Source: Mortierella sp. BCC40632 (Eukaryota; Mortierellomycota; Mortierellomycetes; Mortierellales; Mortierellaceae). Taken from it: a stretch of DNA of 64,000 nt. The translations under genes and the position numbers were made by a program. The notes under the pieces were generated by a model. The model saw only the letters and a list, made by a program, of their open reading frames with translations, was not told where the DNA came from and made no database searches. How positions within the stretch are numbered: the first letter of the stretch is position 1; every line of letters starts with the position of its first letter. This document shows, in pieces, positions 1-12,690 of the stretch. The stretch covers positions 1,632,001 to 1,696,000 of the forward strand of contig WAEK01000010.1 of NCBI GenBank assembly GCA_011634665.1, read 5' to 3'.

Positions 1-3000
1 TCTTGTGTGAATGCTGTAAACTTGAGCTTTCTGCGAGCGAGCTTCTGCGGGAGTGGGTCCGATCACTGCCCATGCTCGTCCTACGACCGTAGTAACTGGT
101 GTTTGATCCATCGCTTAGGTCCTGAATACCTCCAATAAGAATAAAGCGAATGTTGGTCATGTCACCTCCGTAGGACTTCCTTGTGCCACTAGATGCCTTG
201 TACTCCTTGTATCGATTGGAGTTGGACATGGATCGGATCAAGAGGGGCGAGAAATGGCCGCTCACGTCTGTCAAGATTTCATCCAGCTCTAGCAGGAATG
301 AGTCCATAATCCATGGTGGCATCGAATACTCTAGATGGAGCGACTGTACGGCTGGGTTCTTCCAATGTTGAGCATGCTGCAAGACCAAAAACGATGGCTC
401 GATGAAATTCTTCTGGATTCGCTCACCAATCAATGGTTCGCCGTCGGTTTCGTCCACGTCATTCCGTCTGTCGCGTGCACTTGGGCAGAGACCTTGTGCG
501 ATCGAGGTCTCAATGATATCATCACAGAGACTCTGTCTGAAGCTTTTACTGATGGCGTCCAAGAGGGCTGATGCATTGACATTTCCTTGAGCCCACACCT
601 CTATCATCAGCTTATACTTGGCCCTGGAAGTATCGTGCTCGCTTCCATGTGGGAAAGTATCAAAATATTTCTGAATGACCTCCTTGTCGTATTCCCCTTC
701 CTGGTAGCCAACCTCAAAAACGGGGCGGTTGTCTTGTCCCAAGATAGTTAAGCAAACACCTGCTACTCCAATACCGACCAATGCCTCCATCGGCGTTGGT
801 GGCCGACCCTGCACAGCATTGTAAAAGAACGAAAAGTCTCCAATTTGGAGCTGATGGGCTTGACCCGCGCTAGTAAAAGTATAGCGTAATGCCGATGAGT
901 CGATGTGATACACAGTAATGTAGCGCACCTTACCAATAGTGCTAAAACAGTGCTAGTCATTCCTACCGGTCATGAATTCGATCGTTTTGAGAAAGTCGCC
1001 CAAACTGAGCGTGATAGTGCCTCGACAAGGCGTTGATCTTGTCTGGTCCCGAAAGGGGACTGAGGTATAGACACAAGTTTTGCTTCAGATACATCATGAA
1101 TGCATAAGGGACGTTAATAAATGGAGGGATGTCCAGAATCTGGCGCGACGGCTCCATGCGATCCACAGGAAGGATAAAATCGACGTCCTGGTTAAAAGTG
1201 AAGAAGAGGAAGAGAGAGAGAGGGATAGGGCCGTTAATAATTAGACTAAAACTATCTTACATGCATGTAGTTTGTTTTCAGCGCCCACTTACCGCTTGAG
1301 TGAGCTTCAGAGTCGAGTTTCTAGAAAGGAATGTCGAGACGACAGAGAGGACAACAGAATTGTAGAACTTGCTCTCCAACATGGAAAAGAGTTCTCCAGT
1401 AACATTCTTTCCTGGTGGTTCTACGCCATACACCTCAATTACTAGCTCTCTAGTCTCGGTCCGAATAACTGGTGGTGCAGCGACTCTAGATCCAGGTGAG
1501 GCAGTGGGTGAAGGGCGGGGACTGTTGGCGTGGGAGCTCCCTTCGTCCAATCCTTGATCTACCCCAATCACTGATGATGCATCATCTCCTCTGCTGGCAC
1601 TATTGCCCACGTTCAAGTGAGAACCCTTGCCTTCCTCTGCTCCTGCAACCGAGTCGTGTTCTGGGTGGATCTCGATTTCACTCAATCTTAAGAAAACGAC
1701 AATCTTCTTGGTCGGGTCATGGTCATCAATACTTTCGACGACATAAAAGTTTCTCCGGTTTTGAACAGCAAATGGATAAAGAATCGAATGAGCAACGCTC
1801 TTAGTGGCTTGTCCCGGCTTGACACGCCAATGCAAGGGCCAAGCAACACGATGCACCAATGGACATGCAAACTCTCCGGGCTTGAACTTCCGGGCTTCAG
1901 GCGCGTCTTCTCCTGGTCGAGATCCTCCTGTTATAATAGCTTCATCGTCTTGGGACAAGTCGTCCGAGTCATCGTAATCCGACCCCGATCCCGAGTCTGC
2001 ACTGGGATCTGAGTCATCATTTGGCACCAAATACTTGCTGCAGTTGCGAGTTTCGTTCAGAGACTGGAGCAGAGTTAACTGGTTCACCTTGATACACAGA
2101 TTGTTGATAGATCTCTTTACATGGTCGACTATCCTGTTACATTCTTCCTCCGTGAGCGACTTTGAAAAGAAGTACATCTGGACATAGGTCTCCTTGGGGA
2201 CAAGGATGAGCCAAAATTCGCGCTTTTTGATCGGGCGTTTCTTCAGTGAGCTCAAGTCGTTCCGACTTGATTCAGAGGATGGCTTCTTCCTGGACAATGG
2301 CTTGGGTTTCGGGAGGATAACAATGCCTAGACCGTGGCAAAGATCGCTCGATGGTGTCATAGCTGAATCGTCATCGTGATGTGCTCCAGAAAGGGAGGGT
2401 AGGTCCTCATTCTCTGCTCCATCGTTGTCTTGAGCAGTTGGACTATCGGACATCGAAGAGTCAGCGTTGTTCTCGGCACTTTCTTCATCCGGAGAGTCAC
2501 CCTCCATGAGACAGAAAAAGTCACCGCATTGGTGAAGTTCAAAGGGATACATGTCGGCTCGCCCAAGCTCTTGCATAAATATATCATATCCTCGTCTTTG
2601 TTTCACAAATGTCAGCGGCAGTGTCATGGACGTTGGGAAATTTACAAAGTCGCTCTTGGTCTTTAGCTGGGATTCCACAAGATTGAGAATATCGACAGTG
2701 ACGGGTGACACGCTCAATAATCCATGCATGATCTCTTCCTTGAGAAGCCAGTCCAATCTGGACTCGGTGTCTGCGATAGCCTCAGTTTGAACCGAATCCA
2801 ACGTAGGGAACTGATACTGAAAGTTGCGAATGCCTCCTAGCTGACTATTGTCGATGGCAATCTTAGAATCCGACTCGATGGACTTCAATGTTGGTCCCGA
2901 GTAGTCTTCTGGTTGAGGCAAAGAAAGGATTACCAAGTGAAGTATAGCGATTGTTCCATCTGCAGAATCGACAGGCCGTGATTCGAATCCAATCTTTGAA

Positions 3001-6000
3001 GGTGCATAGTCCTGTTCCCGGCCATCCTCCTCCTTGTATATGTAGGAGAGTGGTAACTCTGTAATTGGGAAGGTAACAGAAGGCCGCATGTTGGCTTGGT
3101 CCAAGTCTGCAGGGGAAGTCAAAGGCTTCTGGAAGGAACATTCAAGCTGAAGGAGGAATGGGCGCTCTGCGCTCTCAATCACTTCGGCTAATGCATCGTC
3201 TATGTCTGCATCGATCGATCCAGAACGCGAGACGCTGGGTGACCGCTTCCTCGGCTTGGCTTTAGTGGATTTGGGGGCGCTCTTTCGTAGTGGAGGACGG
3301 TAAAAGTACACGTGTTCCGAGCCAGGGACAGGAGAGAGGTCGAATGAGTGCTTAAGCACGTTTGAGAATCGTTCGCGAATATCGGCCGCCTCTTCTCTAT
3401 CACTAGAGGGTAGAGTATCTAATTTAGCTACTTTTTTTTTTACCACGAACGAAAGTATACTTCTAATAGCTTCCACTTGAGTCAGATAACCACTGTGGCA
3501 CTAACCTTAGACAACCGTCGCGTCTTCCTTGTTCCAATGTGTTCAAGAACCCGGTAATGTTAATATCAACCGTTGCCCTCGTGCAAATCTGGCATGCTCT
3601 CTTGAGATCCTCTTTATCGACTAGATGACCTTCAATGAGCGACGCATAGATCGTCTTTGCAAAACTGTGGGAGAACGCAATGTTGATAGTATCGCTCAGA
3701 TTAGCCGTCGATTCCCATAGTCGTGTGCGATTCTTGAGTCGTTCATTCGCAGCTTCGAACATTGCGGGCTGGATTAAGAACAGCTGTTGGGAGGGAGTCG
3801 GGCCTCGCTGATTTAAGGTTCCAGGTCGAATATCGAACGATGTAAGGTTCATATCCATAGTGCTGACGCTGACCTCAGAGTAATCCCCTGTAAGAGGCTT
3901 GCTTCGCATACACTCAAAGACAAGACAGCTCAAAAAGTCATGTCTGGCAAGTTCTGCCTCCTGTGCACTCTTCTGCTTTAGGGGGAGTGATCGTAGCTTC
4001 GAGATATGGCTAATGACAGAGCCAAGCTTGGGAATGATGGCGAGAAGGAAAACGCGAGGATTAGGTATCTTGACAAAGCATCGAATGTCTTGAAACGAGT
4101 GTGCACAGTGGAATGCCATTAGGGCTTGTCGGATCTCTGGACTGTCCTTAATTGACAATTTAATATCCATGAAGAACTGACAGCAAGCATCATCTTCACC
4201 TCCCGCCATAATCTCGCCATCTGCAAGCTGGGAGAGCGCCTTTTCCATATACAGGTGAAGGATGGCTAGATCGCGGTCCTCACAACAAAGTTCTCGAATC
4301 TGGTCCTTGTACTCTGTCATTAGGTCCGATTCGCCAGGAGCGGTCGTTGCCTCTGCTTCCAAGACAGACTGGTGGAGACTGGTGCTACTTATGTTTGCAT
4401 GCCTGGTCATATAAAGCTCTCTTGCGACTGTTGATGACACTATCAGAGGTTGAGTGCTTTCTCCTGTAGTAGAAGCATTGGCGAGACCGAGAGTATGTAC
4501 GCATCTCTTATGAGGTTCGTTCTCAGGTCCATGATTATTGCCTTTGCCTGCTAAACATTTCCTGGGAGCTTCATAAGCAAGAGTAATAAATCTCTGCTGT
4601 CGCAAAAGTGACGACGGATCAAACAGCCAAGGGTACATGAAGCCTTTGTCGGACTGATGTTGGACTGGGGGTCGTAGTCTGAGTCGACCGATCGTGTGGA
4701 TTGCTTCAAACGTCGCAAGGCGGGAGAGAATTAGCCGGTCTACTACAATAATATCCGATTTAACTCTCCTAAAGACATTTTTCCTTAGAGCATCCGTGAT
4801 TGGCTCCATCCATACTTCGGTGAAAAGCTCTCCAGTGACTGAGCTTCTGAAAATGACGTACTGAAGAGCGCAGTATTTTGCCCGCAGGAGAGAACCCTGT
4901 GGTTTGGATAGCTCAAGTTCCTTGCAGAAAACGACACGGTTTGGCAAGACGGATGCCAGCAGGAACCCCTCGCTTAAACGCTGGGCACAGAGAAACTGAA
5001 AAGCTAGATCCTGGCTCGCCATCAAGTTGTTCTCAGTGAGGTAGGCTATATCCCGAACTTGATCCTTCCATCCCCAGTGCTTGTGAAGTAAATAAGATCT
5101 CATTACGGATTCTTCACCGATTGGCTCTGAGACTTGTGTGTGGAAATCGTCCGTTGCCGTTTCTGGTGTCTGGATTTGTGAAGGTTCGTAGATAACATGC
5201 CGCATCATCAGTCGATAGAGAGGTCGCCGGCACTCGAGAATCTTGGCTTGCAACGTATCAGCCTCAGACTTTGTTTTGATGTCCTGTTCTGCCGTAGTCA
5301 CTTGGAAGTTAGTTAATCGCATTTGGATATCCTTTGCGATCTTCCGCCTCAGGACAAGAGGGACCCCGAAAAATCGAAGTTGGACTTTGAGGATCGAGAC
5401 ACTAGGCTCAGTGAATAAGCGAAGTTCACAGAATCGCGCGCTTCTCGTTGTTGTCTGAGTCTTCTCTGGAGATTGACATGTCTTAATAAAGACATCTCCA
5501 GCAACAAAGGATGCCCATGACTGTTGAAAGTACTCTCGAATTCGCTCTACAGTCGTATCCAGAGCTTCGTTGTATCGAATGAGCGAATGGTCGGTGTCCA
5601 AAGCGGTTGGTAGAAATGCTGGCGGTGGGACTGACAGGAGCGCATCAAACTCGAATTCACTGTACCAACATCGACTGTGCTGGTAATCCGCATCCTTGGC
5701 GAATCCTGACCATTGCTCTGAGAATCGAGATAAATAAATGGATAGATCGTCCTTCTCTTGAACTTGAACTGTCATGCCATGGATACCAGTTCGACGAGCA
5801 CGCTCTCTATCCTTTGCACGCTGGGTCCAGAGCGCTTGGTTGGCTGTAGCATGAGAGCAGGTGAGTCCACGTAGAGAAACATCTGAGTCGCTCAGATTTA
5901 CAATATAGCGGTGCAGTCGGAGGACCTTGGTGTACACAGAGTGATTGGCACTAACTGGTGTGTGTTGCGAGTTTAGAAAGTAGATAGCAAATGCTTGATA

Positions 6001-8540
6001 GGCAATAATATCAATCTCGATCTTGGGCGACTCGAATCGGTCAAAGTAGCTCGTCGACGTTCCAGGGGCTGATACGTGTCCTTTCATTTTGTACTGAACT
6101 GTCACGTTTGGAAGCCATGCTAGAGTCATCGTGATCATGTATCGTTCCATGGATGGTCGTTCTCGATCTGGGGCCACAGAGACACCCTTGATTCTGAATC
6201 CTTGGCGACTACGAGCTCCAACAAGCTTCTCCACGGGTATATTCAGCAGATACTCTTTGCAGGCTGTCTGCATCATCTTAATGGGTTCTGGAGAGCTCTT
6301 TGGGTCCCATGGGAAGTTAGCAAGAGAATAGCCGATTGAGTCGTCCCGATCGTCCAAATCATCCAGACCGGGTCGCGGCTTCAGAAGACAAAGCTCTCGG
6401 ATCAAGAATGCTCGGTGATATGTATTTGGTGCGACACGCGTGGTTGAGGGGCCGTGTGACCTTGCAAAGTAATCGATAGGACTGCAGTCCTGCGAATACA
6501 TAAACTTTCCGAGTGTGGCCTCTGTCACAAAACGAAGGATTTCTGTATCCTGAATAAAGCCCCAGTTGCAACTTGGAATAGAGGCATCACGACCACCCAG
6601 TTGAATAATTGAGCAGGACACATCCAGTTCCATGAGACGTCGAAGGATCGAGCTTCCGTGCAGCATGTTTGACTTGACAACACCGTCGGTGATCAACACC
6701 ATCGAAGGCGAGGCTTCATCTGGCATCATGCCCAGCGCAAACAGTCCAGCTGTCAGCGTATATGAAATATTAGCTCCTGACAATCCAACGCCCCATGATT
6801 TCCGATGGCTGATGTCATCCTCCATGTCCAGCTCGGCATTCTCATCATCAACGGTGTCCTCAACGGCCAAAGAATACCCGAGGTCCTCTCGGGCAGAACG
6901 TAAATCACTTCTAAACTTTGCGAGCTTTGACTGGAACTGGGATAGTTGAATACGGAGAACTCGCAGAACAGAGTGCAAATTCGATTCTGTCAAGATCACG
7001 TCCTGAAGAAGAACCTTCATTGTCGGAAATTTGGCCAGAATCTCCCCTGTGTGAACGTTGCTGGCGAATTGTGAGCATTCCGCGATGACTGTAATATGGA
7101 TGTCTGTCTAAATTTCCAAATGTGAGAAGGAGCGTCGTATTAGTTTTTTTTTTTTTTTTTTTTTTTTTTTCCTATAAGAGACAACAGTAAATATGACGAC
7201 TTTATTTCGAGATGGAGGGTGCACGCGCGCCTTACCTGAACAAAATCCCCTGTCATTCCTGGACACGAGAACCTCTCTGACAAGCCTGATAAACATTTCG
7301 ATAGTCTATAGTGGATGTTCGATACTTGTTGTTAGTGCCTCCGGTATGATTAAAGCAGAGCAATGTTGCGCCTCAAGACCAAACTCTGAGATAGACATAC
7401 GTTTCCATGACTTGGCCCATGATGATTTTCGTTCCGCTTGAATCGACAGTTAGAACAGAGGAGCTGACATCAACCAGGAAAACTGTTCGATACTGCTTGT
7501 TGATATAAAAGACACGCGTCTGAGGAACAAGTCGCATGGAACTAGTTGCCAGTCTCTGATCCTGGGATGGATCTTCTGCCCACGGAAGGTGTTTATCCGA
7601 TGAAGCATGAAGAACATCAATAGTCTATATCCAGCAAGGAAGGTTGCGGGTTTCAAAGACAGTTAGGTTGTCATCTCCTGATATTCTACCGTTGTACATA
7701 TCGCTGCCAGAACGGGAAAAAAAACGCCTTACCTCAGACTTTAGTGCAGCAACAGAGCGAAAGAGATTCCGGAGCAGACTCCCTTCGAGATCCGACCTCG
7801 AGAGCTGTCGTGGGTCCTCAACGACAATAGCCAGGGTTTTGGCGTCCTCAACCAGTTTCTCGGGTGGTGGGATATGCTCCTGGCTTGAGACTGTAGCTTG
7901 AATTTCTGACCCATCATTGGATGGATTCAACGTGTTGGGTGCATTGGTATCATTCGCGGCAACGGGGCCGGGCGAGAGTTCAGAGTTGGGTGACCGCATT
8001 TGTGATGACGGTGAATGGGACTCTGGATGCAAGGCTCCTATTGGTCCTGATGTGTTGGGAGATGGGGATCGACCGCCATCCCGAGGACTAGAAGCTGGAT
8101 CCATGATCTCCAGTGATGCTTCCAGGTGTTTGCCTCTATCGCCGCCCATTTCAGTAGCCACAGGAGGTGGAGGCGTCGCCTCCTCTATCGGACTGGAAGA
8201 CTCTTCGGAGTCTTCTTGAAAGTAGTAGCTGTGACAGTCGAGATTAACGGTCGCGTCCAAATGGTCGCGCATTAGTATGACTAGAGCTTTGTGATTACAG
8301 TGCTGATAGATAATGGATTGCTCTGAGTTGGCTAACGCCTGCGAAGCCTACCTCGCCATGGAGTTCTTATTTCATTAAGGTCCGTGAGTGAATTAGGTGG
8401 TTGGTAGTCAAAGTCGAGTTCATCTCGCAGCGACAGACATGAGTCGTAGCAGAACGGACTGTGTACTCAGCCACGCGATATTGTAGGTTTTCTGCATAGA
8501 GACCAGTCCATAAACTTTGAATGGCAAAGCTTTGTAGCAT
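1..8540 (-). CDS. SZT2: SZT2 homologue, KICSTOR subunit (3' end beyond window)
   Basis: Very large protein. In animals SZT2 is the scaffold of KICSTOR, which recruits GATOR1 to the lysosome and so restrains TORC1 when amino acids are scarce. Model on the minus strand: 8540-8439 (weakest exon), 8302-7733, 7624-7401, 7305-7236, 7107-3506, 3462-1293, 1187-967 and 869 to beyond base 1; all phases agree, giving about 2,609 residues. Human SZT2 is about 3,430 residues, so the missing C-terminus should lie to the left. Recognition rests on the N-terminal part: LVPQTRVFYINKQYR, then LSKCLSGLSERFSCPG, then a block with MVLITDGV, SIIQLGG and TYHRAF, in the same order and spacing as human SZT2. Acidic and Ser-rich linkers fill the middle. 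Met at 8272 is an alternative start. Confidence 0.85.
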
Positions 8541-8797: not shown

Positions 8798-10974
8798 TTA
8801 GACTCGTCCATACATGTCGTACGACCGTCGCTTCTTGGCTATTTCGAACAAAGGAGCAGTTTGTCAGAGTCTTATCAAATCCAGCCGTCAGATCAATGTA
8901 TCCTGAGCTACTTACGGTCACGAAGCACACTATACGCAGCAGTGATCTCTTGAAACTTTTTCTTTCCAACATCTTTTTCTTTCTGGGTAGAGAACCGATC
9001 CGGATCTAATTGAACCCATTCGCATTAGAGGCAACTTTTAGTTACACCGCTAGATATAAACAGACTTGAGCGAAAAAAAAAAAAAAAAAATGCCGTTGTA
9101 GCCATATCACGTACGCCATTTCATAGCAAGGCCACGGAATGCTGACTGAATTTCCTGGGTGGAAGCATCCTTGGATACACCAAGGGTTGCATAATATCCC
9201 TGAGGATCTCCCTGAGGACCCGATCGCTCGTAGGAGGATTGCTGTTTATACTGGCGATTCTCGGACCAGTCTTGGCGACGCTGTTCTTCCTCAAACCTAT
9301 TTCATGTCCATCTATTGTGTAAGTACGGTAGAAACCATGTTGCCATGGAAAGATTGAGGAGTTTTAAAAAAATGTCTTCTGACTTACCTGTCATATGTCT
9401 TTGTCCAGTCACTATCCCAAGAAGCATTTGCTGCCTCTTCGAAATGTCCCTTCATCTCACTATTCCCGGGTCGTGTGGGAGATATGAGACACATACAATA
9501 ATCAGAAAGTGGACAGAAAATACCAAATATCCAAGAGAGAGATATCTGCAAAAGGAAGACTCACCGTTCGCGCCACCAGTCTCGAACTTGATGGTCCAAA
9601 AGAGGGTAGTAGTTTACAGCCCAGGCTGCAAGAAGTGAAGGCGCAACTACCCCTAACCAGAAACCAGAAGTAATAGTCATGCCAAAGCTCGAGGCTCCAA
9701 GGATAGTAAGGGTAGCAGCGGCGCAGACAGCTGTCGCAGCGCTCACCCTCTGCCAGGAATAGAAGCGAAGTCCTCCGACTAAAGGCGTAGGATCATTTCC
9801 TTGTACAAATGTTCGAAACGTTCTGCCAAGGTGCTCCATCGAGAACACATAGACTGGCAAGTAGACAGGGGCTGTGATCAGATCACTATACTGGAAATCC
9901 ATAGAGAGAATCCGTGCTCGGTCACATCTGTAATTTTCTACAAGCCATTGTTCTGCATTCCTGACTTCATTGTTTTCGATTTCCGTTCGGACAAACTTGA
10001 GTGCAATGGACGGCTTCATTGTAAAAGGGTCCAGACCTCTGTTAGCCAACCCACGGTTCACATCTTCAATATCCCTGGACTCCATATCAGCTGGCTCTAG
10101 CGACTTTGCAGAAAGAATACTGGTCCCGCTACGGATCTGGTTCACAAACCCTCGACGATATTTGTAAGAGGCATAGATCTGTAACTCTGGGAGCGTTGAG
10201 GGATATGTACTCGAGAACTCGTGCTGAGTTAGGACAGCTCTCCATGTGGTTTCCCACTGAGATTCATTCCTATTTGTGACCCTGTTGTACCTGGTCACAA
10301 GCCGGTCCCATCCGACTAAGATTTTTTTTTCCCCAGCACAAGATAAACCATTAGTGGAGATGGTCTCACGAACAATAGTTGCAAGGAGAGGAGGGGATTG
10401 TAAAAGATAAAACTGGGCTTTCATAGAGAGCCAGACACAGTGTACAGAGGTGCAACATTACCTTGCGCGTTGATTAACTTTGATCGAACTGAGCCACTAG
10501 CGGCCCAGAAAGGGATGTAAAGTGCTTCCACTTTCCGAACCTGTTTAGCCTTGGCGGAGAAGAAGCTGTGTCCCTGATATTTCTCGAATGCCTAGAGAAA
10601 GATAGTGATAGATAATGGTCGCCATGAGGCGGATCCACGATTGGCGAAGGAGTTATTAGATCGTCGATTAGGTTGTGTTTCCACAAAGGGCCGACAGAGT
10701 CCGCAACGGAGAGCAAGCAATCTCCCGGGTAAAGAAGAAGAAGAAAAAAAAAAAAAAAAAAAAGGAAGAGCGAGAGAAAAGGTCGGCGACTGACCTCTTC
10801 CGCCTGCTTTGCGTTCAGATTGAAGGGGATCAGGCGGATCTTGTTCTTGTTAGGCCCGTCATCTTGACGATAACCAGGGCCTGATCCTTTTGACCGCGAC
10901 TCATTTGAGATTGAACGGCAAAAGGATGGTTGGCGGAAACGAGAGAACGATGATAAAAGTGGATGTCTAGTCAA
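8798..10974 (-). CDS. Mitochondrial-type membrane protein with C-terminal J domain
   Basis: Predicted 510 residues. Exons: 10974-10791, 10721-10639 (these two least certain), 10591-10462, 10315-9565, 9459-9388, 9296-9115, 9005-8916, 8838-8798. The N-terminus (MTRHPLLSSFSRFRQ) is rich in Ser and Arg and lacks acidic residues, as in a mitochondrial presequence. A middle soluble part contains KVEALYIPFW and LITAPVYLPVYVF, followed by two hydrophobic segments around the ATAVCAAATLTILG and WLGVVAPSLLAAW stretches. The last 75 residues form a J domain: YYATLGVSKDAS, the HPD triad split by an intron at 9114-9006, then FQEITAAYSVLRD. J domains stimulate Hsp70 ATPase. A partner such as the matrix or cytosolic Hsp70 is inference. 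I do not recognise a named orthologue. Confidence 0.75.
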
Positions 10975-11303: not shown

Positions 11304-12525
11304 AGAGTACATGGTTCAAAAGGGCGCCGCATGGGATATTTCTGCCTTTCCTGTCTGGTTCTATATTACTCTGGGCTGTCCTGTCCAGTCCTTTTGTCCT
11401 GCAGATCCGACAAAGCCAGGCTGCGGGAAAGCACAGAGGCTTGACCCGGAATAATAATGATGGAGACAAATGGGCACGGAACAGGAAAGAAGGAGAAAAG
11501 GAAGAAAGGGGATTGGGGGGGGGGATGGGTGGGTGTGCAACCCGGACCTGCGGAATGGCAGCCAGGTCTGGTATGTATGACTGCAGAGACAACTGTCGAT
11601 GAAGATGCGATTGCCGATATTGTGCAATTGGTCCTTTTGATCTCTTTTTTACCCTTTTGCTGTTCAGGAACAGTTCCCATTCTCTCCCTCTCTCTTTCTC
11701 TCCCTCTCTCTCTCCCCATAATATTGCTTTAGAAAAAAAAAAAATAATAATAATGCCCTGTTGTCCCGTTGTTGTCTACTCCGGAATTCAAGCAATGGGC
11801 TCGATGTCCAAAAACCGATCCAGGGGAGGTATTATTGGCCTAGGACCAAGGGTGAACAGGGCAGTAGAGACTGAGCATTGAGCATTGTGCATGGCGTCGT
11901 AATGCTATCTCGAATCCAGCAGCCACCCGTAGACGCACTGTGCTTATATCGATGGTCCTTGCATGCCAATGCCAGGGAAAGCATATGAGTCGTTTTTTTT
12001 TTTTTTTTTTGTTGGTCGTGTGCTCGAGATCTTTCTCGCTTTGTTCTGGGGTACAGAGCTCGAGCTCAGGTGAGATACTTGCATGCACTCCTCCTTCTCC
12101 GCCCACCGTGCCCAGTGGGAATGCTACAGAGGCTGACAGGTCTAAGAGCAAGGGAGCGGCGGCGGACAGGGACAGGGATAGTGGACAGGACCAAAAGGAC
12201 GACCTCCACCATTGTCCCTCACTGCCCGTACCCCTAGGGGAGTATGGGAACCGATCCCACGAGAGACAGTGTCCCAGCTTTACTCCTCCTTCATCTCCTC
12301 TTAGCCTGCACCATTGTGGACGGGAGGAGGGCCCGACTGGATCTGCTTGAGGCAACAATGGGGCCTGGACCTGGAAAGGACCGAACAGGCATGCAGCAAA
12401 CTTTGTTACTTGTTGTGTGTGTACCTCTCTCCATGGACGAGAGTTTGACCTCTGTTGTCCGTTCATAGATTGTGTGTTAGTTGTTTATGTCCCAGTGCCG
12501 TTCCCTGGCCCCTCTTTCTCTCTTT

Positions 12526-12528
<3 letters not shown>

Positions 12529-12574
<46 letters not shown>

Positions 12575-12690
12575 TTTTCTGCTGTCTCCCCTCTCTTCTC
12601 TCTCTCTCTCTCTTCTCTCTCTCTTCTCTCTCTCTTCTCTCTCTCTTCTCTCTCTTCTCTCTCTTCTCTCTCTTCTCTCTTCTCTGTCCG
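12529..12690. repeat. CT and CTCTCTT satellite
   Basis: A (CT)n run to 12565 leads into T12566-12578, then a second block of about 93 bases built of CTCTCTT and CTTCTCT variants. It produces spurious Ser/Leu-rich frames on both strands. Confidence 0.9.

Follow-up and report, generated by a model that had tools for sequence, protein, structure and literature searches.

Does a mould carry SZT2, the long scaffold of a complex (KICSTOR) that has been labelled mammal-specific (PMC8534245), and, if so, might the scaffold act there as it does in animals? The question is raised by one end of a 64,000-nucleotide stretch of the genome of Mortierella sp. BCC40632 (C10:1632001-1696000, here called the window), where a first-pass annotation had placed the N-terminal part of an SZT2 homologue. 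The 49.9 Mb of the genome, in 62 contigs, were searched for its partners. Sequence, predicted fold, a phylogenetic tree and matches to KICSTOR and GATOR1 genes together support the window SZT2 as an intact orthologue from a Mortierella-type fungus.

Identification of the scaffold

The SZT2 gene lies on the minus strand in eight exons and runs from window position 8359 past the low window edge to the end of the stop codon at C10:1627166 (Table 1). Its predicted protein has 4,188 amino acids, of which 2,578 are encoded within the window, and the frame has no internal stop, in agreement with the roughly 2,600 intact N-terminal residues first claimed. The gene had been assigned to positions 1 to 8540; its presence there stands, but the upper edge does not, as coding begins at about 8359.

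To which family does the protein belong? The homology proposed in the first pass is borne out by PDB sequences, where all matches at E <= 0.001 are SZT2: three for the open frame 3466-7107, which holds exon 5 (best 9.8e-10), those of the last exon (best 6.1e-23) and four for a nine-row profile (best 6.7e-55). Against human SZT2 the profile aligns along four stretches, all collinear. Three are significant individually; the third of the four (human SZT2 2659-2706) has an independent E-value (i-E) of 0.081. The conserved blocks thus follow the human order, as had been proposed, with two blocks inside the window and the rest outside. A lack of similarity outside 7624-6300 would have refuted the first reading, but similarity also reaches beyond that region, into the second block, into sequence outside the window and into the predicted fold of window 7104-3610 (1,165 residues). 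That N-terminal fold matches human SZT2 from KICSTOR-GATOR1 structures (9o5a, 9o5d, 9o5e, 9v0j), and in the fold comparison SZT2 ranks far above all other matches. The structures were identified from PDB titles; a literature search recognised no paper on KICSTOR structures from cryo-electron microscopy. The likeness to human SZT2 thus consists of collinear blocks and a shared fold. The human protein has 3,432 amino acids, whereas the fungal one contains long inserts of low complexity that lie mostly towards the C-terminus, and identity between the two is low.

Pfam gave no family above cut-off in five pieces of the window, nor in the relative P0121. No SZT2 model surfaced in either search, and the missing family is therefore not counted against SZT2. 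Weak matches to EF-hand_FSTL1 and Remorin_N were discarded as below cut-off.

Relatives and descent

The protein searches scored just those candidates sharing most words, so that the lists of relatives are lower bounds (at least 44 matches). Among the matches listed, the closest proteins come from Mortierella, Linnemannia, Podila, Haplosporangium and kin, with a mean identity of 52-62% to Mortierella-type relatives in near full-length rows; 14 of the 44 are Mortierella-type proteins that already bear the name 'KICSTOR complex protein szt2'. Those of Linnemannia zychae, Podila verticillata, Gryganskiella cystojenkinii and others are like the window protein from end to end, and the start MAS-YYFQED occurs in 9 of 47; the species differ, and no annotated difference in build was found. 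A FastTree tree was built from 27 sequences (the window protein and 26 of the 47) over 2,606 columns. It nests the window protein in the Mortierella-type group, followed by Rhizophagus, Ambispora, Umbelopsis and other fungi, and separates the fungi from five animal rows with support of 1.00. This branching fits vertical descent of the gene from an ancestor shared by animals and fungi. The gene is apparently single-copy, the exon 5 frame matching itself alone in the genome at the sensitivity of that search.

Partner genes in the genome

Are the partners there as well? KPTN, ITFG2, C12orf66 and the GATOR1 genes, which the first-pass annotation had named as the ones to look for, were all matched. 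KICS2 (C12orf66) is represented by PF09404 in one exon, above cut-off (E 2.4e-13), and by PDB KICSTOR subunit 2 (E 3.5e-9). For ITFG2, three pieces match PF15907 above cut-off (best E 8.5e-7), one of them containing a stop within its scored part. KPTN has three pieces collinear with toad KPTN (E 2.0e-7, 0.0017 and 0.048) and a PDB kaptin match at E 1.7e-14. GATOR1 is represented by Iml1/DEPDC5 (E 7.2e-89), Npr2 (E 1.3e-38) and Npr3 (E 4.0e-35); a second NPR3 match, on contig C18, is below cut-off and has seven stops. Matches to the Sestrin family, the Bmt2/SAMTOR family and TSC2 are also present. As the Bmt2/SAMTOR family occurs in yeasts too, its match is not diagnostic. Fourteen control genomes gave no match for the KICS2, ITFG2, Iml1, Npr2, Npr3, Sestrin, Bmt2/SAMTOR and TSC2 families. 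CASTOR1_N (PF18700) had no match in the genome and none in the control genomes either, so its absence is unproven.

ITFG2 (C1:1800697-1803609) and KICS2 (C1:1916412-1916666) lie on the same strand of one contig, about 113 kb apart, which is probably meaningless.

Proposed function

Mammalian KICSTOR anchors GATOR1 at the lysosome (PMC8534245). By analogy, the fungal KICSTOR would have four subunits, with SZT2 as its long scaffold alongside KPTN, ITFG2 and KICS2, and the complex would hold GATOR1 at the membrane of the vacuole or lysosome. When amino acids are short, GATOR1 would switch off RagA-type GTPases and TORC1 would go off. From gene content we infer formation of the complex, its location and its signalling; on the same analogy, the fungal SZT2 may control TORC1. 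That it works as in animals, as a KICSTOR scaffold that recruits GATOR1, is given a probability of roughly 0.85.

Several results weigh against this assignment of identity and function. Structural alignments with human SZT2 show low identity (15-20%), and the predicted model has a predicted local distance difference test score (pLDDT) below 50 at 283 of its 1,165 residues. Among the partners, the ITFG2 match to PDB sequences is weak (E 0.0022) and another ITFG2 exon had no match there; another KPTN exon retrieved no kaptin from the PDB sequences, its best hit (E 0.38) being an unrelated protease. The region that may bind GATOR1 is weakly conserved. Deletion of SZT2 residues 1026-1132 abolishes GATOR1 binding, according to a paper that cites earlier work for this and whose isoform numbering may differ (PMC8534408). 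The approximate fungal counterpart is bounded by YPWLFDP and RCFVK (residues about 1091-1294) and carries a long fungal insert; within it, DLAILHLYMEKALSQLADGEI aligns, weakly, with animal rows. Human SZT2 901-1021 and 1119-1151 were positioned via a grasshopper protein, and phmmer left human 1022-1118 unaligned even to that protein.

Could the orthologue have kept the scaffold fold within a rewired complex, binding something besides GATOR1 or serving another role? The weakly conserved binding region, the long fungal inserts and an overall identity to animal proteins of about 23-25% (BLAST pieces) would be in keeping with this. The genome, however, retains the three other KICSTOR genes, KPTN, ITFG2 and KICS2, as well as all three of GATOR1, and the predicted fold matches SZT2 chains of GATOR1-bound structures; rewiring is thus considered unlikely.

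How much of the system is kept? Chances are about even that Mortierella-type fungi retain a complete animal-style nutrient brake, with four-subunit KICSTOR, GATOR1, the Sestrin and Bmt2/SAMTOR families and TSC2. Such a brake could be dissected genetically outside animals, including the question of whether S-adenosylmethionine sensing on KICSTOR-GATOR1 predates animals. An intact mould SZT2 with its partner matches would itself allow KICSTOR function to be studied in a non-animal system.

Relation to published work

The usual yeast models are without KICSTOR, which is the reason for the mammal-specific label (PMC8534245), and its loss in yeasts is taken from the literature (PMC11836306, PMC8534245). 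A 2025 study by Barua, Plecha and Muszewska (PMC11836306) reports that KICSTOR occurs in Mucoro-, Mortierello- and Glomeromycota as well as other non-Dikarya fungi and contradicts an earlier statement that it is missing from fungi. The authors describe early fungal lineages as carrying KICSTOR, GATOR, Sestrin, Samtor and TSC, and many inhibitory components as lost in Saccharomycotina. The presence of SZT2 and of matches to its partners in a mould supports an origin before the animal-fungal split, and to that extent the first-pass reading, of an SZT2-dependent nutrient control older than animals, is partly supported; as a new inference the point falls, as it is already published (PMC11836306). 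Novelty is reduced further by the relatives that already bear the szt2 name. SZT2 and KICSTOR in such fungi were thus already reported in 2025, and the present result is sound but expected. A literature search found no paper containing both 'SZT2' and 'Mortierella'; the 2025 paper covers the group as Mortierellomycota.

A small refinement is offered. For Mortierellomycota, Barua et al. propose a three-protein KICSTOR, with Lobosporangium transversale as the model species, and for Mucoromycota they give SZT2 as duplicated, with more than two copies in all (PMC11836306). In the genome studied here, by contrast, four subunits were matched and one SZT2 copy was found. Their method was BLASTp at 1e-5 (PMC11836306), which could miss a divergent KPTN or ITFG2.

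Gene structure

All seven introns of the model are GT-AG; exon boundaries were set by eye, and the splice signals themselves guided the choice. The boundary between exons 1 and 2 reads ATGGCGAG^gt ... cacag^CTACTAC and gives the MAS-YYFQED start. This mini-exon start is preferred because nine of the 47 related proteins begin with MASYYFQED and the window encodes exactly that start. It displaced an earlier model with its ATG at 8272 (4,200 amino acids) and superseded the provisional starts 8272, 8149 and 8104.

Table 1. Exons and conserved regions of the SZT2 gene, in window coordinates
Feature	Position	Strand	Content	Basis
Exon 1	8352..8359	-	ATGGCGAG; encodes MA and two bases of S	MASYYFQED start in 9 of 47 relatives
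Splice join, exon 1 to exon 2			ATGGCGAG to CTACTACTTTC	gene model
Exon 2	7733..8228	-	N-terminal low-complexity part	gene model
Exon 3	7401..7624	-		gene model, alignment with relatives
Exon 4	7236..7305	-		gene model
Exon 5	3506..7107	-	amino acids 267-1466	PDB sequence match, predicted fold
Exon 6	1293..3462	-	contains start of conserved block 2	gene model
Exon 7	967..1187	-		gene model
Exon 8, first part	1..941	-	continues beyond window to C10:1627166	whole exon matches human SZT2
Conserved block 1	6396..6795	-	human SZT2 226-349	profile match, end motifs placed on gene model
Conserved block 2	about 505..2216	-	exons 6-8; human SZT2 1916-2390	profile match, end motifs placed on gene model
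Approximate counterpart of human ~1026-1132	4024..4635	-	amino acids 1091-1294; weakly conserved	alignment

The upstream neighbour and other features

Directly upstream of SZT2 and in the same orientation lies a DnaJ-type gene (window about 8798-10575, minus strand) with a J-domain match (PF00226) at 9110-9301. Among the 44 relatives listed, six were deposited as a single protein with a J-domain and SZT2 (P0122, P0133, P0136, P0137, P0146 and P0147). Might the fusion be real, with the upstream membrane-type DnaJ spliced to SZT2 exon 2 and the scaffold bearing a J-domain? P0146 and P0147 have a common junction, YDI-YYFQED, which a possible in-phase donor after window 8814, read by eye, would yield as well. 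Yet the junction takes three forms among the four fused models that retain YYFQED, Linnemannia zychae was deposited both fused (P0136) and unfused (P0129), and the DnaJ frame of the window ends at its own stop at about 8798. With the MAS mini-exon explaining the unfused start, the deposited fusions probably arose when annotation merged two genes whose order is conserved, and a true fusion is very improbable. That the SZT2 label is itself mistaken, and that the protein resembles a different family containing a VWA-like domain, has a next to negligible probability, since no other family appears among the solved-structure sequences at the threshold used, SZT2 is far ahead in the fold comparison and the remaining named relatives listed are SZT2 or named after the neighbouring J-domain.

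Elsewhere in the window, positions 12512-12685 (about 170 bases) hold an imperfect CT repeat. A strong excess of G over C (skew of 0.37 and 0.41 per 2 kb) marks 44001-48000, and the sequence read at 45001-48500 is rich in purines, with numerous simple repeats of GA type.
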